This document shows, piece by piece, positions 122 through 56,882 of a DNA stretch of 64,000 bases. This DNA comes from Zhouia spongiae (GTDB lineage Bacteria; Bacteroidota; Bacteroidia; Flavobacteriales; Flavobacteriaceae): NCBI RefSeq assembly GCF_022760175.1, contig NZ_CP094326.1, positions 868,001 to 932,000 on the forward strand, read 5' to 3'. The notes below the pieces were generated by a model that did not search any database, was not told the DNA's origin, and was given only the letters and a program-made list of their open reading frames with translations. The first letter of the stretch is position 1. Each line of letters begins with the position of its first letter. The position numbers and the translations under genes were made by a program.

Positions 122-1051
122 TTAAAAATCATCTACTTCTTTGTAGGCGTCTATTACAGCACGCTCACCTTCTTTTCCCGGCTTTGAATTTCCATGTTCC
201 ATTCCAAGAACTCCATCAAATCCTCTGGCGTGAATATGCCTAAATACATTTTTATAATTAATTTCTCCTGTTGTCGGCTCTTTTCGTCCGGGATTATCCC
301 CTATTTGTATATAAGCTATTTCATCCCAGCAAGCATCGATATTAGGAATAAGGTTTCCCTCGGTAATTTGCTGGTGGTAGATATCGAACAGGATTTTACA
401 CGATGGAGAATTAACCGCTTTGCAAACCTCAAAAGCCTGAGGAGACTCGCTTAAGAACATTCCCGGGTGATCTCTAAAGTTCAAAGGTTCCAATACCATC
501 ACCAATCCGTGAGGCTCTAAAATTTCAGCTGCCCGTTTTAACGACTCTACTACATTTGCAGTCTGATAAGCTATATTTTTACGCAAATCAACATGTCCGG
601 GCACTACCGTCATCCATTTAGCATTAACGCGTTTAGCCACTTCCACCGAACTTTTTATATCGTCTAAAAACTCTTTTCGGTATGAAGCATCACCTCCTGC
701 AAGGTTGGGCTTATTCCAGTATATCTTATGCGCCACAAAAACCCCCATCTGAATGCCGTGTTTTTGCATGGTTGAAGCCATTTGTTCCTGTGTCTGAACT
801 GCCCTGCTTTTCATCCCATTATCCTCAAAGGCCTTAAAACCCTGACTTGCCATGAACTCAAGCTGGGAGACCTCATCCTTACCTGCAAGGTTTTTAAACA
901 TCCCCAGATGTGGAGCGTATTTCAGCTTGAATATATTTTCGCCATTTTTAACATTGTCCTTATTTGCAGAAAAAGCCTCTGAAGTAATCATAGATGCACC
1001 TATAGTTGATAAAGCAGTGTTTTGAATAAACTTTCTTCTTTTCACGTTCAT
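122..1051 (-). CDS. Sugar phosphate isomerase/epimerase, hydroxypyruvate isomerase-like TIM barrel, Tat-type signal
   Basis: A 309-residue AP-endonuclease-2-like TIM-barrel protein of the hydroxypyruvate isomerase/sugar isomerase type. Barrel features visible are the 'MVLEPLN' strand, 'ILFDIYHQQ', 'YIQIGD' and 'GVLGMEHG', which carry metal-ligand Glu/Asp/His residues. The N-terminus MNVKRRKFIQNTALSTIG has a twin-arginine signal pattern, so export is likely. The ATG at 1051 is preferred over the one at 1105 because it starts the Tat signal and leaves a 7-nt gap from the upstream gene instead of an overlap. It is the last gene of a leftward unit with the GMC oxidoreductase and its small subunit, which suggests it acts on an oxidised sugar in the periplasm. 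The substrate is unknown. Confidence 0.85.
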   Translation of the reverse strand: MNVKRRKFIQNTALSTIGASMITSEAFSANKDNVKNGENIFKLKYAPHLGMFKNLAGKDEVSQLEFMASQGFKAFEDNGMKSRAVQTQEQMASTMQKHGIQMGVFVAHKIYWNKPNLAGGDASYRKEFLDDIKSSVEVAKRVNAKWMTVVPGHVDLRKNIAYQTANVVESLKRAAEILEPHGLVMVLEPLNFRDHPGMFLSESPQAFEVCKAVNSPSCKILFDIYHQQITEGNLIPNIDACWDEIAYIQIGDNPGRKEPTTGEINYKNVFRHIHARGFDGVLGMEHGNSKPGKEGERAVIDAYKEVDDF

Positions 1052-50771: not shown

Positions 50772-51364
50772 GCCTTGTAACCATAAATAGCTATTATTGT
50801 AAAGAGTAAGTATTGAAATGATGTAAATATCAGTCCTTTATACAGGTACAGAGGAACCGAAATAATATCGCCTATTATCCAGAATATCCAATTCTCCAGT
50901 TTCTTTTTAGCCATTAGCCACATTCCTACAAAAAATATCGCGGTGGTAACGGTGTCTATATAAGCTGTCCAGCTTGTCCATTTTTCGAAGTACCAATAAA
51001 CCAAAAACACGAACAAAAGAGTAGCCACAAAAAGCAATACACTCCAATTTTTCTCGCGTAAATTAATATTCGTAATAGGAACAAAATGCGTTTCATCTAC
51101 TTTACGTGTCCAAAAATACCAACCATAGATACTCATGCTAAAATAATAGGCATTTATCATCATATCTCCCAACAGGCCGTAAACTAATAAAATGTAAACA
51201 AATATGGCGGTACTTATTATTCCGGTAGGATATACCAAAATGTTTTCCCGTTTGGAGTACCAAACACTCAAAAAGCCGAAAATCACTGCAATGATTTCAA
51301 ATATCACAATATGTAACGGAACTCCATCGTACTGTGCAAAAAACCAATCAAAAAAGCTATTCAT
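50726..51364 (-). CDS. pnuC: Nicotinamide riboside transporter PnuC
   Basis: A 212-residue membrane protein with about seven hydrophobic segments. 'FGFLSVWYSKRENILVYPTG' and 'MSIYGWYFW' are PnuC signatures. 'WIFWIIGDIISVPLYLYKG' lies near the end. The ATG at 51364 is preferred over the adjacent TTG. It imports nicotinamide riboside. Some relatives (PnuT) carry thiamine, but the overlap with a NadR-like kinase gene and the absence of a TPP riboswitch favour the riboside. Confidence 0.9.
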   Translation of the reverse strand: MNSFFDWFFAQYDGVPLHIVIFEIIAVIFGFLSVWYSKRENILVYPTGIISTAIFVYILLVYGLLGDMMINAYYFSMSIYGWYFWTRKVDETHFVPITNINLREKNWSVLLFVATLLFVFLVYWYFEKWTSWTAYIDTVTTAIFFVGMWLMAKKKLENWIFWIIGDIISVPLYLYKGLIFTSFQYLLFTIIAIYGYKAWKKSLNKSPETLLK

Positions 51365-51476
51365 CAAAAAATAATGTTATTATCATAAAGTTGTTATTAC
51401 TTTATCGCTACACAAAACTAATTATTATATTACTTTTTTTTATATATTTATTCTTACCAAACTTAAACCAAACCTT

Positions 51477-52037
51477 ATGAAAAAGTATTATTTACTACTG
51501 CTATGTACATTTATTGCCTTAACAACCAATGCTCAGGATACTAACACCGCTGCTCATAGTGTTACTATTAACTTCTCTGAAATTGCCATTGTTGACCTCG
51601 AAAGTGGCGGAAGCACAGATATTACGCTAGATGCTACTGCAGGTGTATCCGAAGCAGGTAATCCTGCGAACTTTGGTACTGTCACAAACAATTCGCTCTG
51701 GCTGAATTATACCAGTATCCTTGGGAACGAAGCCGCCAGATCGATTACAGCTGCTATTACCAACGGAACTGTTCCTGCCGGTATTTCTCTTAATGTTACC
51801 GCGGCAGCAGATGCCGGTAATGGAGACGGAACCACGGGAACTTCTTCAGGATCAGTCGAACTTTCAGGCACCCCTCAGAATCTCATAACCGGAATAGGTA
51901 GTGCCTACACCGGGAATGGTATCAGCAACGGCCATAACCTTACCTATGTGTTGGGCATTGCTGATTTTAGTGCTTTGGACGCCGATAATTCAGGGGCTTT
52001 AATAGAGGTTACTTATACTATTACCGACACCCCTTAA
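51477..52037 (+). CDS. Small exported beta-rich protein, subunit-like (first of a five-gene unit)
   Basis: A 186-residue protein with a clear signal peptide (MKKYYLLLLCTFIALTTNAQ). The mature part is low in charge, rich in Thr, Ser, Gly and Ala, and looks like an all-beta domain. Landmarks are 'EIAIVDLESGG', 'SITAAITNGTVPAGI', 'IGSAYTGNGISNGH' and the C-terminal 'VTYTITDTP'. A paralogue is encoded by the fourth gene of the unit and shares these landmarks. It is the first gene and may encode the major subunit of a surface structure. I recognise no named family. Ten nt separate it from the chaperone-like gene. Confidence 0.8.
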   Translation: MKKYYLLLLCTFIALTTNAQDTNTAAHSVTINFSEIAIVDLESGGSTDITLDATAGVSEAGNPANFGTVTNNSLWLNYTSILGNEAARSITAAITNGTVPAGISLNVTAAADAGNGDGTTGTSSGSVELSGTPQNLITGIGSAYTGNGISNGHNLTYVLGIADFSALDADNSGALIEVTYTITDTP

Positions 52038-52047
52038 CCTTAGACCT

Positions 52048-52821
52048 ATGAAATATTCAGGTCTTATAACCTTGTTCTTCATGGTTCAATTTAGCTATGC
52101 CAACATAGCTATTCTGAATGGTCTGAAGCATGAGCATTCAACATCATCAGGAGATTCAATAAGCGGAGAGATTGATGTGAAAAATATATCTGACGCCCGG
52201 CAAAAGATTATTTTATACCTTCAGGACATTTTAATTCCCTGCCATCAGGATGTAGTTTTTTCTGAACCCGGAAGTTCTGTGAATTCCTTAAATAATTGGA
52301 TCTCCATAGAAAACAACGAGGTTGTACTTGAACCCGGGGAAGTTCGAAAGATCAGATATAAAATTGTTTTTCCAAAGAATATAACTCCTATGGGGTATTG
52401 GAGCATGATCATGGTCGAGGGGCAAACCCCTTTATCTGAACAAAAATTAAAAAGCATTGTAACGGTGAGCTCTAAAATACGCTACGGCGTTCAGGTTATT
52501 TGTAACCTGGCCAATGATTTTGACCAAGCGCTGCAAATTGAAGATGCGAAATACAACCCTGTTACCGGCACTGTAGAAGTTACATTATCCAACCCTTCTG
52601 ATTATGTTGCCAAATCTTCGCTATCTATAGAAATATACAATAAAGAAAGTGAATTAATCTCCGACAAATCTTCTCAGAAGGAGAACATATATCCGGATTC
52701 TTGCAGGACGATCAAAATGCCATTGAATGAAACCCCCGACCCGGGTAAATACACCTGTATGATCATCATGGACCATTCGTCTGAACTTACAGGAACTTCT
52801 TTTGAATTTATCGTTGAGTAA
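52048..52821 (+). CDS. Exported two-domain Ig-like protein, chaperone-like
   Basis: A 257-residue protein with a signal peptide (about residues 1-18) and two predicted beta-sandwich domains (about 19-145 and 150-257). The first contains 'LEPGEVRKIRYKIVFP' followed by 'GYWSMIMVEG', a pattern like the core strands of PapD-type chaperones and DUF916 proteins. The second contains 'NPVTGTVEVTLSNPSDY'. Its place, between a small beta-rich subunit and a large outer-membrane barrel, is that of a periplasmic chaperone. The likeness is structural reasoning, not a database match. Confidence 0.7.
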   Translation: MKYSGLITLFFMVQFSYANIAILNGLKHEHSTSSGDSISGEIDVKNISDARQKIILYLQDILIPCHQDVVFSEPGSSVNSLNNWISIENNEVVLEPGEVRKIRYKIVFPKNITPMGYWSMIMVEGQTPLSEQKLKSIVTVSSKIRYGVQVICNLANDFDQALQIEDAKYNPVTGTVEVTLSNPSDYVAKSSLSIEIYNKESELISDKSSQKENIYPDSCRTIKMPLNETPDPGKYTCMIIMDHSSELTGTSFEFIVE

Positions 52822-52853
52822 CAACTACGTCCCTGACGTAAAAAACAGTTTAT

Positions 52854-55577
52854 TTGATCACCCCAAAAGGAATAGCAGGCTGTAAAAACATAGGCATCAA
52901 TAGCCTTTTACTAGTCGTGTTCCTGCTTTTTGAACCACTAAACGCTCAGCGAACAGCAATAAGCACTCCCAATGACACCATACATATATTGCCCAATAAA
53001 CGCCATACCATTCCGGTAACCTTTTTTAATCCAACACAATTAAAAGACAGCCTGCGCATCCTTTTAAACGTTCCCGGCACCATGTCTGTTTTTCACGATA
53101 TCCCTGAGAATACCGTTTTAGAGGGAAATTCTAAAAAATTATCATTTATCCTGCTAAAGACAAACTCAAAGGTACGCCCTGCGCTATACCCCCTGAAATT
53201 ACATTATGGTAACGGGAAAATAAAACGTGTAAAAACCATATACATAAATCTTCAGGAAGAAGAAAGAACAGAAGCTTCTGTTATCTCTTTTCCCGAGGAA
53301 GTAAAAAGTGATGAGGAATTTTACATTAAGTATTTAATAAAAAACACAGGAAATATAGCCGACACCTTGCAGCTAACATACACGAATGCTGTTGGTGGAG
53401 ATGATTTAAATAAGATCTGGGTCTTACCTCCCGGCAAAGACCTTTCTGTTGAATTGCCTTTCTTCGTACCTGAACAAGGTATTGGGAAAAGCTATTTTAT
53501 GGCAGAAACACATTACAGGTCACTACATAACGGAAAATTAACCAAAATCCGTAAAAGCATCCCTGTTTACCACTCTACACATAATAACGATGAAGATCGG
53601 TTGACTTTTCCGGTTACCGCCGGAATAAAATATTTTAACAGCAGCCTGCCAGAGCAGGAAAACCAAAGTCATTTTCAATTTGAGCTGTCCGGCAGTGGGT
53701 ATGTTGATACCATCAGGAATAAGAAAGTTGATTTTACGCTCAGGGGACCAAGCACCTTGGAGCAACCCAGGTTTGGCAGTTACGATCAATACAGCGTAAA
53801 TTATACATCAGGGAAATTGCATGTTGCACTTGGAGATTATCCGTTAAAACTAAATGTTTTAAGTCTTCAGGGCAGATGGGTCAGAGGTGCAGAGATTAAA
53901 ACATACTTCAACCGGAAAAATTCAATTAAAGCCTTTTATGGGAAGCCCCGTTTTTTTGCACTTACGAATACCCTCTACGGGGCAACATACAGTTATACAA
54001 ACAATAAAAACTTCTCATACTTCCTTGAATGGCTTCAAAAAGAAGAAGATTATAAAAATAAATTACACAATGGATGGATCGGTACAGGCGGTTTCAATTA
54101 CAAAAGAGAAGGGTTTACTTTTCAGGGGCTCTTTTCATATAGCAATGCTGATGCATACAAAGGTCACGGATTTCAAATTAACCCCCAGTTCAGGGACGAC
54201 CTTATAAATGCCTCCGTCGATTACCTGTATGCTTCAAAAGATTTTTTTGGTTATTATAACGATAGCGAGCTTTTAAATGCCCGTTTTCACTATAACTTCC
54301 TAAAACGTTTAAGAATCGGTGTAGGATATAATCAGGCACAATACAACAGACAGCTCGGGGACTTTGAGTTCAACACCCAGCCACAATACAATATGGTGTT
54401 TTCAGATGTGAGGTGGTATTTAAAATCTACTAATTATATCCAGTTCAAATTATACAGGAGGAACAATAAGGATCAGGCTGTAAATGCTACGTTCAATTAT
54501 AAAGAATCTGGTATCAGAAGTATATTAAACTGGAATTTTAACGGGTTTAACGCCAATATTCAACATACAATTTCCGAAACTGTTAACTACCTGATAACCG
54601 ATAACCACAATAGCGGAACCTCGTACAACACCAGGCTTGCCCTTACCTTTAACCCCTTTAACAGTCTTTCTGTTAAACCATATACAGAGCACCTGGCTAC
54701 CAATAGATTTAATCAGGACTCCTCAATAAATGAGACCTATTGGTATTACGGATTGTCTGTTAATTACCGTACAGAGAATTTTAATGGCTCTGTTTTCTGG
54801 AGAAACTCTTATGCCAAAGACGAGTTGTATAAAGACCGAAGCTTTTTTAATGCTCTTCTAAACTATAACATAAATAAAAGGGGACTTTTATCACTGTCAG
54901 GGGGCTACACCGTTTTTCCTTCTCCTCTTGAAAACAAAGACCTTTATTTCAGTCTGGGATACCGGCACCGTTTCGACATCCCATTAGAAAGGAGCAGGAA
55001 TAAGTTTAACTTAATGGGCGACATCCGGTTTTATGGTCAGCAACTCCTGAATAAAACAGGAATCAGGTTCCGGGTAAACAATGACGAGGTTGCCACCGAT
55101 CAGGACGGCCGTTTTGTAATCAGAAACATCAAAACACCGTCTGTAAGGATCGATATCGATAAAAACACCTTACCGGCCGGCTATCTTACCTTTGAAAAGT
55201 TTCCACAAATCGTAAACCTCATGGAAAATGACGTAACACGGATCAACCTGACCCTCGTTAAAGAAAGCAGCTTAAAAGGGAACCTGTCTGTAAAAAAAGC
55301 CCCGTACAGCAAACTCCGGGATTTTAAAATTTATCTCAAACTCTTTAATCAGGATTATCAATATTTTGCCGAGGTAGATAAAAAGAGTATTTTTAGGTTT
55401 ATGCATATTATTCCCGGAACATATAAACTGGAAATAATGAACAACCTTAAAAAAGATCGTATAGAAATTGTTTCCATGGCTGATGAAGTAACCCTTTTGC
55501 CGGGGAAAACCAAAACAGAGAATATTGAACTAAAAGAAACTGAGCGAAAGATCCGCTTTGTTAAATTGAAAAAATAA
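52854..55577 (+). CDS. Large outer-membrane usher-like protein: Ig domains, beta-barrel, two C-terminal domains
   Basis: A 907-residue exported protein starting at a TTG (no ATG lies before the signal, residues about 14-32). Two Ig-like domains follow (about 33-135 and 140-235, the latter with 'IKNTGNIADTLQLTYTNA'). Then comes a long region (about 255-714) of alternating aromatic beta-strands such as 'FSYFLEWLQKEED' and 'YWYYGLSVNYRTENFNG', typical of an outer-membrane barrel. Two C-terminal carboxypeptidase-regulatory/SdrD-B-like domains end it ('VATDQDGRFVIRNI', 'TLPAGYLTF'; and 'FMHIIPGTYKLEI'). No TonB plug is present. The layout recalls fimbrial ushers, but homology is unproven. Confidence 0.72.
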   Translation: MITPKGIAGCKNIGINSLLLVVFLLFEPLNAQRTAISTPNDTIHILPNKRHTIPVTFFNPTQLKDSLRILLNVPGTMSVFHDIPENTVLEGNSKKLSFILLKTNSKVRPALYPLKLHYGNGKIKRVKTIYINLQEEERTEASVISFPEEVKSDEEFYIKYLIKNTGNIADTLQLTYTNAVGGDDLNKIWVLPPGKDLSVELPFFVPEQGIGKSYFMAETHYRSLHNGKLTKIRKSIPVYHSTHNNDEDRLTFPVTAGIKYFNSSLPEQENQSHFQFELSGSGYVDTIRNKKVDFTLRGPSTLEQPRFGSYDQYSVNYTSGKLHVALGDYPLKLNVLSLQGRWVRGAEIKTYFNRKNSIKAFYGKPRFFALTNTLYGATYSYTNNKNFSYFLEWLQKEEDYKNKLHNGWIGTGGFNYKREGFTFQGLFSYSNADAYKGHGFQINPQFRDDLINASVDYLYASKDFFGYYNDSELLNARFHYNFLKRLRIGVGYNQAQYNRQLGDFEFNTQPQYNMVFSDVRWYLKSTNYIQFKLYRRNNKDQAVNATFNYKESGIRSILNWNFNGFNANIQHTISETVNYLITDNHNSGTSYNTRLALTFNPFNSLSVKPYTEHLATNRFNQDSSINETYWYYGLSVNYRTENFNGSVFWRNSYAKDELYKDRSFFNALLNYNINKRGLLSLSGGYTVFPSPLENKDLYFSLGYRHRFDIPLERSRNKFNLMGDIRFYGQQLLNKTGIRFRVNNDEVATDQDGRFVIRNIKTPSVRIDIDKNTLPAGYLTFEKFPQIVNLMENDVTRINLTLVKESSLKGNLSVKKAPYSKLRDFKIYLKLFNQDYQYFAEVDKKSIFRFMHIIPGTYKLEIMNNLKKDRIEIVSMADEVTLLPGKTKTENIELKETERKIRFVKLKK

Positions 55578-55578
55578 T

Positions 55579-56112
55579 ATGAGGCTGGCCTTTTATATAT
55601 TGTTGTGTTCTACCCAATGGCTTTTTGCGCAGATTGACAGCGACATTGTTCCTGTAGAAATAAGCCTCCCCGAAATAGCCTTGCTGGATATTGAAGATGG
55701 TAGTCCTGTAATTTTGAACCAGATCAACCCGACAGAAGCCGGGAACCAACCCGGCTTTGAATCAAACTCGGTTCACTGGATCAATTTTACTTCCGCAGTA
55801 AGTACCGGAACGACCCGAAATATTACAGCTGCCATTGAAGGGGGAAGTATCCCTCCGGGGATAGCATTACAATTAACCCTATCCGGTTATAGTGGCACCG
55901 GTGAAGGAAATCTGGGCACTCCGACGGGTGGAGCTATCACTCTGACAACGTCTCCACAGGATATTATTACGGCCATAGGCGGTGCATATACCGGTAATGG
56001 CGCAGGCAACGGATACCAGGTCGTCTATTCCATTTTATTATCAGATATCAGTTTATTAACCTCAACAACATCAACCAGTTTCGATGTCGTTTATACCATG
56101 ACCAGCTTATGA
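55579..56112 (+). CDS. Small exported beta-rich protein, paralogue of the first subunit
   Basis: A 177-residue protein with a signal peptide (MRLAFYILLCSTQWLFAQ). It shares with the first gene of the unit the segments 'EIALLDIEDGS', 'NITAAIEGGSIPPGI', 'IGGAYTGNGAGNGY' and a C-terminal 'VVYTMTSL'. The ATG lies 1 nt after the usher-like stop, and its own stop overlaps the next start (ATGA). Divergence from the first copy suggests a specialised subunit and not a simple duplicate. Confidence 0.78.
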   Translation: MRLAFYILLCSTQWLFAQIDSDIVPVEISLPEIALLDIEDGSPVILNQINPTEAGNQPGFESNSVHWINFTSAVSTGTTRNITAAIEGGSIPPGIALQLTLSGYSGTGEGNLGTPTGGAITLTTSPQDIITAIGGAYTGNGAGNGYQVVYSILLSDISLLTSTTSTSFDVVYTMTSL

Positions 56113-56609
56113 AACAAGCACCCCTGTTTATCTTCTTTTTTTGCGCATTTTTCTCTAACAGCCAGACGATTACAGTTAACGGGGGAGGCTGGACACCAGC
56201 CATCTCTTCATCTGACATACTTGATGCCGGCAGTGATTACAACACGAATATTTCCAGCAATACAGAACACTCCACCATTAATATCACCGGAACATCGTTG
56301 CTGTGTTTAGGTATCCTGGTAGCTCCCGACTATCAAATTCGAATAAGCCGACAAGACAATAACTGGAACAACCTGTTACAGCTTTTTTTAAGAAGAACAG
56401 GAGATGGAGAACCTACCTTATTATGCTTAGGTTGTTTCATAGAAAACGGCAATAATTATATTGAAATTGAGAGTATTGACAAATACTTTTTTAACATACG
56501 CGGTTGCTACAGTAACATCCCTATTCAGTATGACCTTAGAGGCTTATCCGTCCTTATCCCGCTAGACAGCTATAGCACAGAAGTTATTTATACTATAACC
56601 AATTTCTAA
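56109..56609 (+). CDS. Small exported protein with cysteine pairs, last gene of the unit
   Basis: A 166-residue protein with a signal peptide (MKQAPLFIFFFCAFFSNSQ). The mature part starts 'TITVNGGGWTPAISSSDIL' and has four Cys ('LLCLGILV', 'LLCLGCFIE', 'IRGCYSN') that could form disulfides. It ends VIYTITNF, like the C-termini of the two subunit-like proteins. Its N-terminal and central regions differ from them. By position and cysteine content it could be a tip or terminal component. The start overlaps the previous stop by 4 bp. Confidence 0.72.
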   Translation: MKQAPLFIFFFCAFFSNSQTITVNGGGWTPAISSSDILDAGSDYNTNISSNTEHSTINITGTSLLCLGILVAPDYQIRISRQDNNWNNLLQLFLRRTGDGEPTLLCLGCFIENGNNYIEIESIDKYFFNIRGCYSNIPIQYDLRGLSVLIPLDSYSTEVIYTITNF

Positions 56610-56621
56610 ATTACAGTTTCT

Positions 56622-56882
56622 CTAAAAAAACGGCTCGTAGTCGCTCCTGTCAGACTTTACAATTTTCATAAATAACAAGCCGCGTTCTACCAGCTCAAAT
56701 GCTTCTTTAACTTCAGTGGTCAATACTTTCATTACTTCATCGTAGTTACCGTAAACCTGCGTACTCAAAGGGTTTTCGAGTACCGTAAGTCCGGATTCCC
56801 TCAATTTTTTTATAAAATGGATAATGGCCGGCTCAAATTCGTCCTGAAGCGGGGTTAATGTAAGTTCTACTGATATTTTCAT
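56622..56882 (-). CDS. Thiamine-binding protein family (YkoF/MTH1187-like)
   Basis: An 86-residue protein with the ferredoxin-like fold pattern of the MTH1187/YkoF family: 'KISVELTLTPLQDEFEPAI', 'TQVYGNYDEVMKVL', 'FELVERGLLFMKIVKS'. The ATG at 56882 is chosen because it starts the family-typical first strand; a longer frame from 56909 adds nine unrelated residues. Some members bind thiamine or hydroxymethylpyrimidine. No thiamine genes or TPP riboswitch were seen nearby, so function is tentative. Confidence 0.8.
   Translation of the reverse strand: MKISVELTLTPLQDEFEPAIIHFIKKLRESGLTVLENPLSTQVYGNYDEVMKVLTTEVKEAFELVERGLLFMKIVKSDRSDYEPFF

Follow-up and report, generated by a model that had tools for sequence, protein, structure and literature searches.

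A five-gene cassette of Bacteroidota predicted to assemble a surface fiber by a chaperone-usher-type route

Do five consecutive genes for exported proteins in Zhouia spongiae encode a chaperone-usher-type system for the assembly of a surface fiber? The genes occupy positions 51477-56609 of the window, the whole 64,000-nucleotide stretch of DNA that was analyzed, and an earlier sequence-only reading had likened their arrangement to a chaperone-usher operon. All five ORFs are on the + strand, as are the protein features described below, with gaps of 10, 32, and 1 nt followed by a 4-bp overlap, in exact agreement with the layout given in that reading. The first gene encodes subunit 1, a secreted pilin-like protein (51477-52037, 186 aa), and is followed by genes for a periplasmic chaperone-like protein with two Ig-like domains (52048-52821, 257 aa) and a usher-like outer-membrane protein (52854-55577, 907 aa, TTG start). 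The last two genes encode subunit 2, a paralog of subunit 1 (55579-56112, 177 aa), and subunit 3, a cysteine-containing protein that is a candidate tip, base, or terminator (56109-56609, 166 aa). A hydrophobic segment resembling a signal peptide opens all five proteins, as had been claimed, and none has a lipobox cysteine (read from the sequence). None of the five proteins scored above a Pfam or NCBIfam cut-off, and searches of the PDB with the single protein sequences returned no match.

The unit is bounded on both sides by housekeeping genes on the opposite strand. Pfam assignments identify pnuC (NMN_transporter) and an AAA_28 ATPase upstream, and a thiamine-binding protein (Thiamine_BP) and a phosphopantetheinyl transferase downstream. 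The stretch 51356-56623, which holds the five-gene cassette between pnuC and the Thiamine_BP gene, is absent from a genome of the same genus (G021). Homology to G021 ends at 51355 and restarts at 56624, and these two points are adjacent in G021. Because the flanking DNA resumes at adjacent positions, the cassette was gained or lost as a whole.

An alignment of the chaperone was used to scan 84,980 species genomes, which yielded 179 relatives, and the loci were fetched for 80 of these. The hosts span Bacteroidota (Arenibacter, Maribacter, Lutibacter, Leeuwenhoekiella, Algoriphagus, Emticicia, Runella, Chryseobacterium, Draconibacterium, Maribellus, and Saprospiraceae), and one relative comes from a Chlorobiota MAG. 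Co-occurrence of the genes had been proposed as a check, and it is borne out: the barrel gene directly follows the chaperone gene in all 74 relatives with enough downstream DNA, and the chaperone is followed by barrel, subunit, and subunit in 48 of 51. Two of the three exceptions have split barrel frames and the third has an unrecognized third small gene. A subunit gene lies immediately upstream of the chaperone in 57/71 relatives. The fetched loci were picked by similarity to a chaperone subset, and the gene-order statistics therefore hold for that branch; in more distant versions the parts are the same and their order varies. The protein distances of chaperone and barrel are correlated (r = 0.98; best of 500 permutations, 0.16), with the caveat that common species descent also raises r. 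Conservation of the whole unit, its clean presence or absence, and the mirrored chaperone and barrel distances exclude chance, and the five genes form one real unit. The chaperone is carried by 72 of 395 genomes in an even sample of the Bacteroidota phylum, and its distribution in Flavobacteriaceae is patchy (12/249 genomes). A first barrel profile matched 163 genomes of the phylum, and most of these genomes were left out because they matched through the carboxypeptidase-regulatory-like domain alone.

Genes resembling response regulators (LytTR-type by eye) lie just upstream of the chaperone gene in loci L014, L015, L017, L018, L020, and L069-L081, and some relatives also have Hpt-like or kinase-like genes upstream. 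The window copy has none nearby. These neighbors suggest two-component control of the unit in many relatives.

The identity of the chaperone-like protein was approached by profile comparison. On its own, the window protein matches nothing in Pfam, and a profile built from just nine chaperones found nothing in the PDB; a larger profile of 37 members was required. Run against all PDB chains, the 37-member profile returned EfmWxLIP1 (9i1y, 9i25) as the sole strong match (E = 3e-10). The match covers profile positions 41-258 of 261 and thus includes both Ig-like domains. By this measure the chaperone-like protein is a homolog of the crystallized WxLIP (DUF916-DUF3324), and its two-Ig fold is inferred from the crystal structure of WxLIP, with no predicted model of its own. 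A distant Flavobacteriaceae branch exceeds the Pfam cut-off for PF06030. The authors of the WxLIP work predict that a strand from one of its hairpins fills a gap in the WxL domain and so completes the WxL sandwich (PMC10599100), which we read as donor-strand complementation in all but name.

The same family connects to the chaperones of pili. Direct hhalign comparison of the window branch alone with the FimC set of Escherichia coli K-12 was negative. The window family matches the group 2 chaperones with a probability of 99.8, group 2 matches a Chlorobium-like set at 98.3, and the Chlorobium-like and group 2 chaperones together match eight K-12 FimC-type chaperones at 95.1. Controls for the last link gave 0.2 for a reversed profile and ≤1.0 for 30 shuffled profiles. 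Distant members match PF00345 at E = 9e-4 to 4e-3, which is below the cut-off. On this profile evidence the family is joined to FimC/PapD-type chaperones through intermediate families. The sequence-only reading had offered both a PapD-like and a DUF916-like analogy for a two-domain Ig-like protein, and both were right because the chaperone family belongs to the same superfamily as each.

The region aligned with the K-12 chaperones takes in the donor G1 strand of FimC. The candidate equivalent in the window protein is residues 137-151 (52456-52500; IVTVSSKIRYGVQVI), where alternating hydrophobic residues are followed by Arg145-Tyr146 in the consensus [VI]-x-[IL]-x-[TS]-x-[IV]-R-Y. In the 37 chaperones the conserved columns are V/I138, I/L140, T/S142, and I/V144, with Arg145 in 33/37 and Tyr146 in 37/37. 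The pattern parallels, by eye, the FimC consensus L-x-[LI]-x-S-x-I-K. Binding of the subunit C-terminus by the arginine is a conjecture.

Two further branches were seen among the relatives. One, distant and from Flavobacteriaceae (L022:7852-8808 and L023:8543-9406), matches WxLIP_PGBD (DUF916) above the Pfam cut-off, as shown for L022, and lies next to subunits of another set and to a barrel that carries an SdrD_B-like domain; it is a second version of this kind of system. The other (L154 and L163-L175; family f18, small genomes, probably Chlorobium-like) has subunits that end in GGQYTITATTI or similar and chaperones that open with a motif of the SPxMFEL type, and its barrel proteins are about 870-910 aa long. 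A weak match to PapD_N was seen for the chaperone of L154.

The AlphaFold2 model of subunit 1 (pLDDT 92.7) is a β-sandwich that ends in a conserved strand. The first five Foldseek matches are all the CFA/I pilin CfaB, with probabilities of 0.97-1.00 and E = 2e-3 to 8e-3, and the matches after CfaB are other donor-strand filaments. VIA Z scores are about 7 to CooA, CfaB, CS17, and some archaeal filaments, and 5-6 to FimG, PapA, and FimF. These values are moderate, and a Z of 7-8 falls in the range that the tool's own warning describes as common. A candidate N-terminal donor strand lies after the signal peptide at residues 27-35 (51555-51581; HSVTINFSE). A hydrophobic residue occupies positions 29, 31, and 33 in 95, 100, and 100% of 58 relatives, and positions 28, 30, and 32 in just 12-17%. 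At the level of sequence, a donor strand would be expected to show this alternation.

The C-terminal strand of subunit 1 spans residues 177-184 in the DSSP assignment of the model (52005-52028, within EVTYTITDTP). A similar terminal strand had been noticed in all three small proteins (VTYTITDTP, VVYTMTSL, and VIYTITNF in subunits 1, 2, and 3), and the relatives bear this out. An aromatic or aliphatic residue, a threonine, and a hydrophobic residue lie a few residues from the stop in 59/60, 57/70, and 69/70 relatives at the three subunit positions, and the motif [YF]-T-[LIV] is near universal. Subunits 1 and 2 are 34% identical, which upholds the proposal that they are paralogs, and subunit 2 is the only other copy of the subunit 1 family detected in the genome. 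A gene related to subunit 3 is present at the equivalent position in 70 of the loci examined. No profile link was found by hhalign between the subunit family and the K-12 FimA set.

The cysteines of subunit 3 (56109-56609) sit in LLCLGILV and LLCLGCFI, and the family at that position has two cysteines in 28/70 members and none in 23/70. Lutibacter-type loci have extra subunit-like genes outside the unit (L014:3112-5075; in L069-L080 they lie downstream of it), so some fibers may have more than three subunits.

Homology to WxLIP raises the possibility that the unit is a Gram-negative counterpart of a WxL cluster, in which a WxLIP-like protein holds a coat of subunits bound to peptidoglycan or the surface, the barrel is an anchor or porin, and no fiber is polymerized. 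The C-terminal YTLTD of the subunits also resembles the WTL end of WxL domains. Against this, none of 23 subunits scanned has a WxL match in Pfam, and the N-terminal strands of the subunits have the donor-strand pattern. The C-terminal transmembrane helix of WxLIP is missing: the window chaperone ends ...SSELTGTSFEFIVE with no hydrophobic segment, and the relatives likewise show none. An invariant usher-like barrel of 900 aa has no place in WxL clusters. We regard such a coat as unlikely. The likeness to DUF916 and WxL drawn in the sequence-only reading thus stands for the chaperone, and a WxL identity of the subunits is unconfirmed.

The 907-residue protein was modeled with AlphaFold2 from 41 aligned sequences (pLDDT 83.4). 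DSSP assigns two N-terminal β domains, 26 membrane-type strands, and two C-terminal β domains, which fits the outer-membrane barrel with terminal β domains that had been proposed. The N-terminal β-sandwich domains span about residues 33-245 (52950-53588), the membrane barrel residues 249-713 (53598-54992), and the C-terminal transthyretin/carboxypeptidase-regulatory-like domains residues 718-895 (55005-55538; profile match to NOMO2, E = 3e-17). Residues 34-145 match a sialidase Ig-like domain of bacterial origin (E = 3e-4). The predicted barrel has 26 strands, compared with 24 in the textbook usher. It has no plug-sized insertion, since no inter-strand segment exceeds about 15 residues in the model, which is a prediction only. 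PF00577, the usher family, is absent from the genome and from this protein, and hhalign of the barrel family against seven K-12 ushers gave a probability of 5.5 and no detectable link. Profile comparison of barrels and subunits with the ushers and pilins of K-12 gave probabilities of 0.2-27% with no sequence-level link, and an attempt to reach them through Chlorobium-like intermediates failed.

Structure comparison connects the barrel to ushers. When the model was compared with the whole PDB by Foldseek, FimD chains took the first eight places (E = 2.5e-16 to 6e-14), ahead of every other barrel; the TM-scores are low (0.27). VIA-align gave Z = 16.4-16.6 for FimD, with 485 residues aligned at an rmsd of 13.0 (Z = 16.6), and the alignment extends into the C-terminal domains (251..893 on FimD 137..833). 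The single best Z belongs to MtrB (Z = 19.6, 403 residues, rmsd 6.3), and the MtrB barrel has 26 strands, the number predicted here. It follows from the slightly higher Z of MtrB that large-barrel geometry explains part of the FimD match, and the protein could be conceived as a large MtrB-like diffusion or electron-conduit pore with the small proteins as extracellular partners. That account is very improbable, given that FimD chains lead the Foldseek results with an alignment that reaches the C-terminal domains, that the unit lacks cytochrome genes, and that the invariant partners are pilin-like and chaperone-like. In the model, the protein has the usher fold, a large barrel for the outer membrane with N- and C-terminal domains on the periplasmic side, and correspondence of the N-terminal domain is not established.

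The N-terminal domains of the barrel protein (52950-53588) weakly resemble chaperone profiles (hhalign probability 40-74%), and could serve for docking or as a plug built into the protein. One clade has barrel proteins with a lipoprotein-type signal at the start (FSAC, FIFAC, or QIAC) and, ahead of the N-terminal β domains, an extension of low complexity that is roughly 100 to 400 residues long (L015:9135-12209, L017:9602-13513, L018:9143-12679, and L020:8573-9814). The extension is a separate ORF in L020.

The sequence-only reading would have fallen if the predicted folds had shown no Ig-like chaperone, if the barrel had been closed or too small, or if the genes never occurred together, and it survived all three, two of them by prediction. 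The gene unit, the folds of subunit 1 and the barrel, the chaperone homology, and the donor-strand sequence patterns were computed, and together they support the chaperone-usher-like arrangement. We conclude, with a probability of about 0.78, that the cassette is a self-contained chaperone-usher-type system for the assembly of a surface fiber, of a lineage that diverged in Bacteroidota. The fiber itself is inferred, as are strand exchange, secretion through the barrel, and the roles of subunits 2 and 3.

The proposed mechanism starts with export of all five proteins by Sec, inferred from the signal peptides. Subunits 1-3 would be incomplete Ig-like β-sandwiches with one strand missing. In the periplasm, the WxLIP-type chaperone would lend residues 137-151 beside the C-terminal strand of the subunit and keep it soluble, and the chaperone-subunit complex would bind the usher-like protein at the periplasmic domains that lie N- and C-terminal to its barrel. 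Residues 27-35, the N-terminal strand of each newly arriving subunit, would then displace the chaperone strand, and the growing fiber would pass out via the barrel.

A broader hypothesis, to which we give even odds, is that the unit represents an ancient branch, the fourth in the chaperone-usher superfamily, that is native to Bacteroidota and Chlorobi. Its ushers would be plugless and 26-stranded, its chaperones would bridge PapD and WxLIP, and the pilus chaperones of diderms and the surface-complex proteins of monoderms would descend from one donor-strand chaperone. A plugless usher would raise the question of how so wide a pore stays shut. If the fiber is borne out, Bacteroidota gain a second fiber-assembly route beside type V fimbriae in about one in five sampled genomes, including those of Chryseobacterium, Arenibacter, and Lutibacter. 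The chaperone connects PapD chaperones with WxLIP, families that have been treated separately, and the origin of donor-strand assembly becomes testable. The chaperone-usher pilus pathway is a textbook route of secretion; current gene-family catalogs miss this unit. No description of it was found in the open-licence literature; preprints and most subscription papers were outside the reach of the search, so prior description is not excluded.

Type V fimbriae of Bacteroidia (FimA and Mfa1-5) are likewise a surface fiber of Bacteroidota, and a donor-strand mechanism has been proposed for them (PMC4789730). The unit differs in having its own chaperone and barrel, no fimbrillin or Mfa match in Pfam or NCBIfam, and no lipobox in its subunits. 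The shared phylum and the weak similarity of some relatives of the chaperone to Por_Secre_tail (best E = 1e-3) leave some room for surface proteins exported by the type IX route or for a form of type V fimbriae. No type IX C-terminal sorting domain was matched in the five window proteins by Pfam or NCBIfam, and the unit encodes a dedicated barrel; this origin is the least probable of the alternatives.

Subunit 1 aligns with TasA-like and archaeal donor-strand filaments (7ueg, 9ikj, and CanA) at Z = 5.6-7.2. We know of no dedicated outer-membrane barrel in those systems, whereas one is present in the unit.

The WxL/WxLIP clusters of Gram-positive bacteria (DUF916-DUF3324, PF06030/PF11797) share a chaperone homologous over both domains and a partner protein predicted to be completed by the WxLIP hairpin strand (PMC10599100). 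In contrast, the unit comes from a diderm host with a dedicated outer-membrane barrel, and, without WxL domains or the transmembrane helix, it does not qualify as a WxL cluster.

The known branches of the chaperone-usher pathway are reported from proteobacteria, Cyanobacteria, and Deinococcus-Thermus and have little sequence in common (PMC4654587). The phylum of the unit lies outside the reported range of these three branches. The unit also differs in having no PF00577 or PapD match in Pfam above the cut-off, no sequence-profile link for its barrel and subunits, and a barrel modeled with 26 strands and no plug insertion in place of 24 strands and a plug. It cannot be placed in the PF00577 usher family because neither the PF00577 test nor the plug test is met. 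In common with FimC/FimD/FimA, PapD/PapC, the archaic CsuC/CsuD, and the alternative CfaA/CfaC, the unit has the order logic of subunit, chaperone, usher, and subunits, a two-Ig chaperone with a hydrophobic G1-like strand, and a chaperone gene beside the usher gene (74/74). Its pilin fold is nearest to CfaB, and its barrel, with periplasmic N- and C-terminal domains, is nearest to FimD. With strand exchange and a barrel-dependent fiber inferred, the best reading is that the unit works like a chaperone-usher system.
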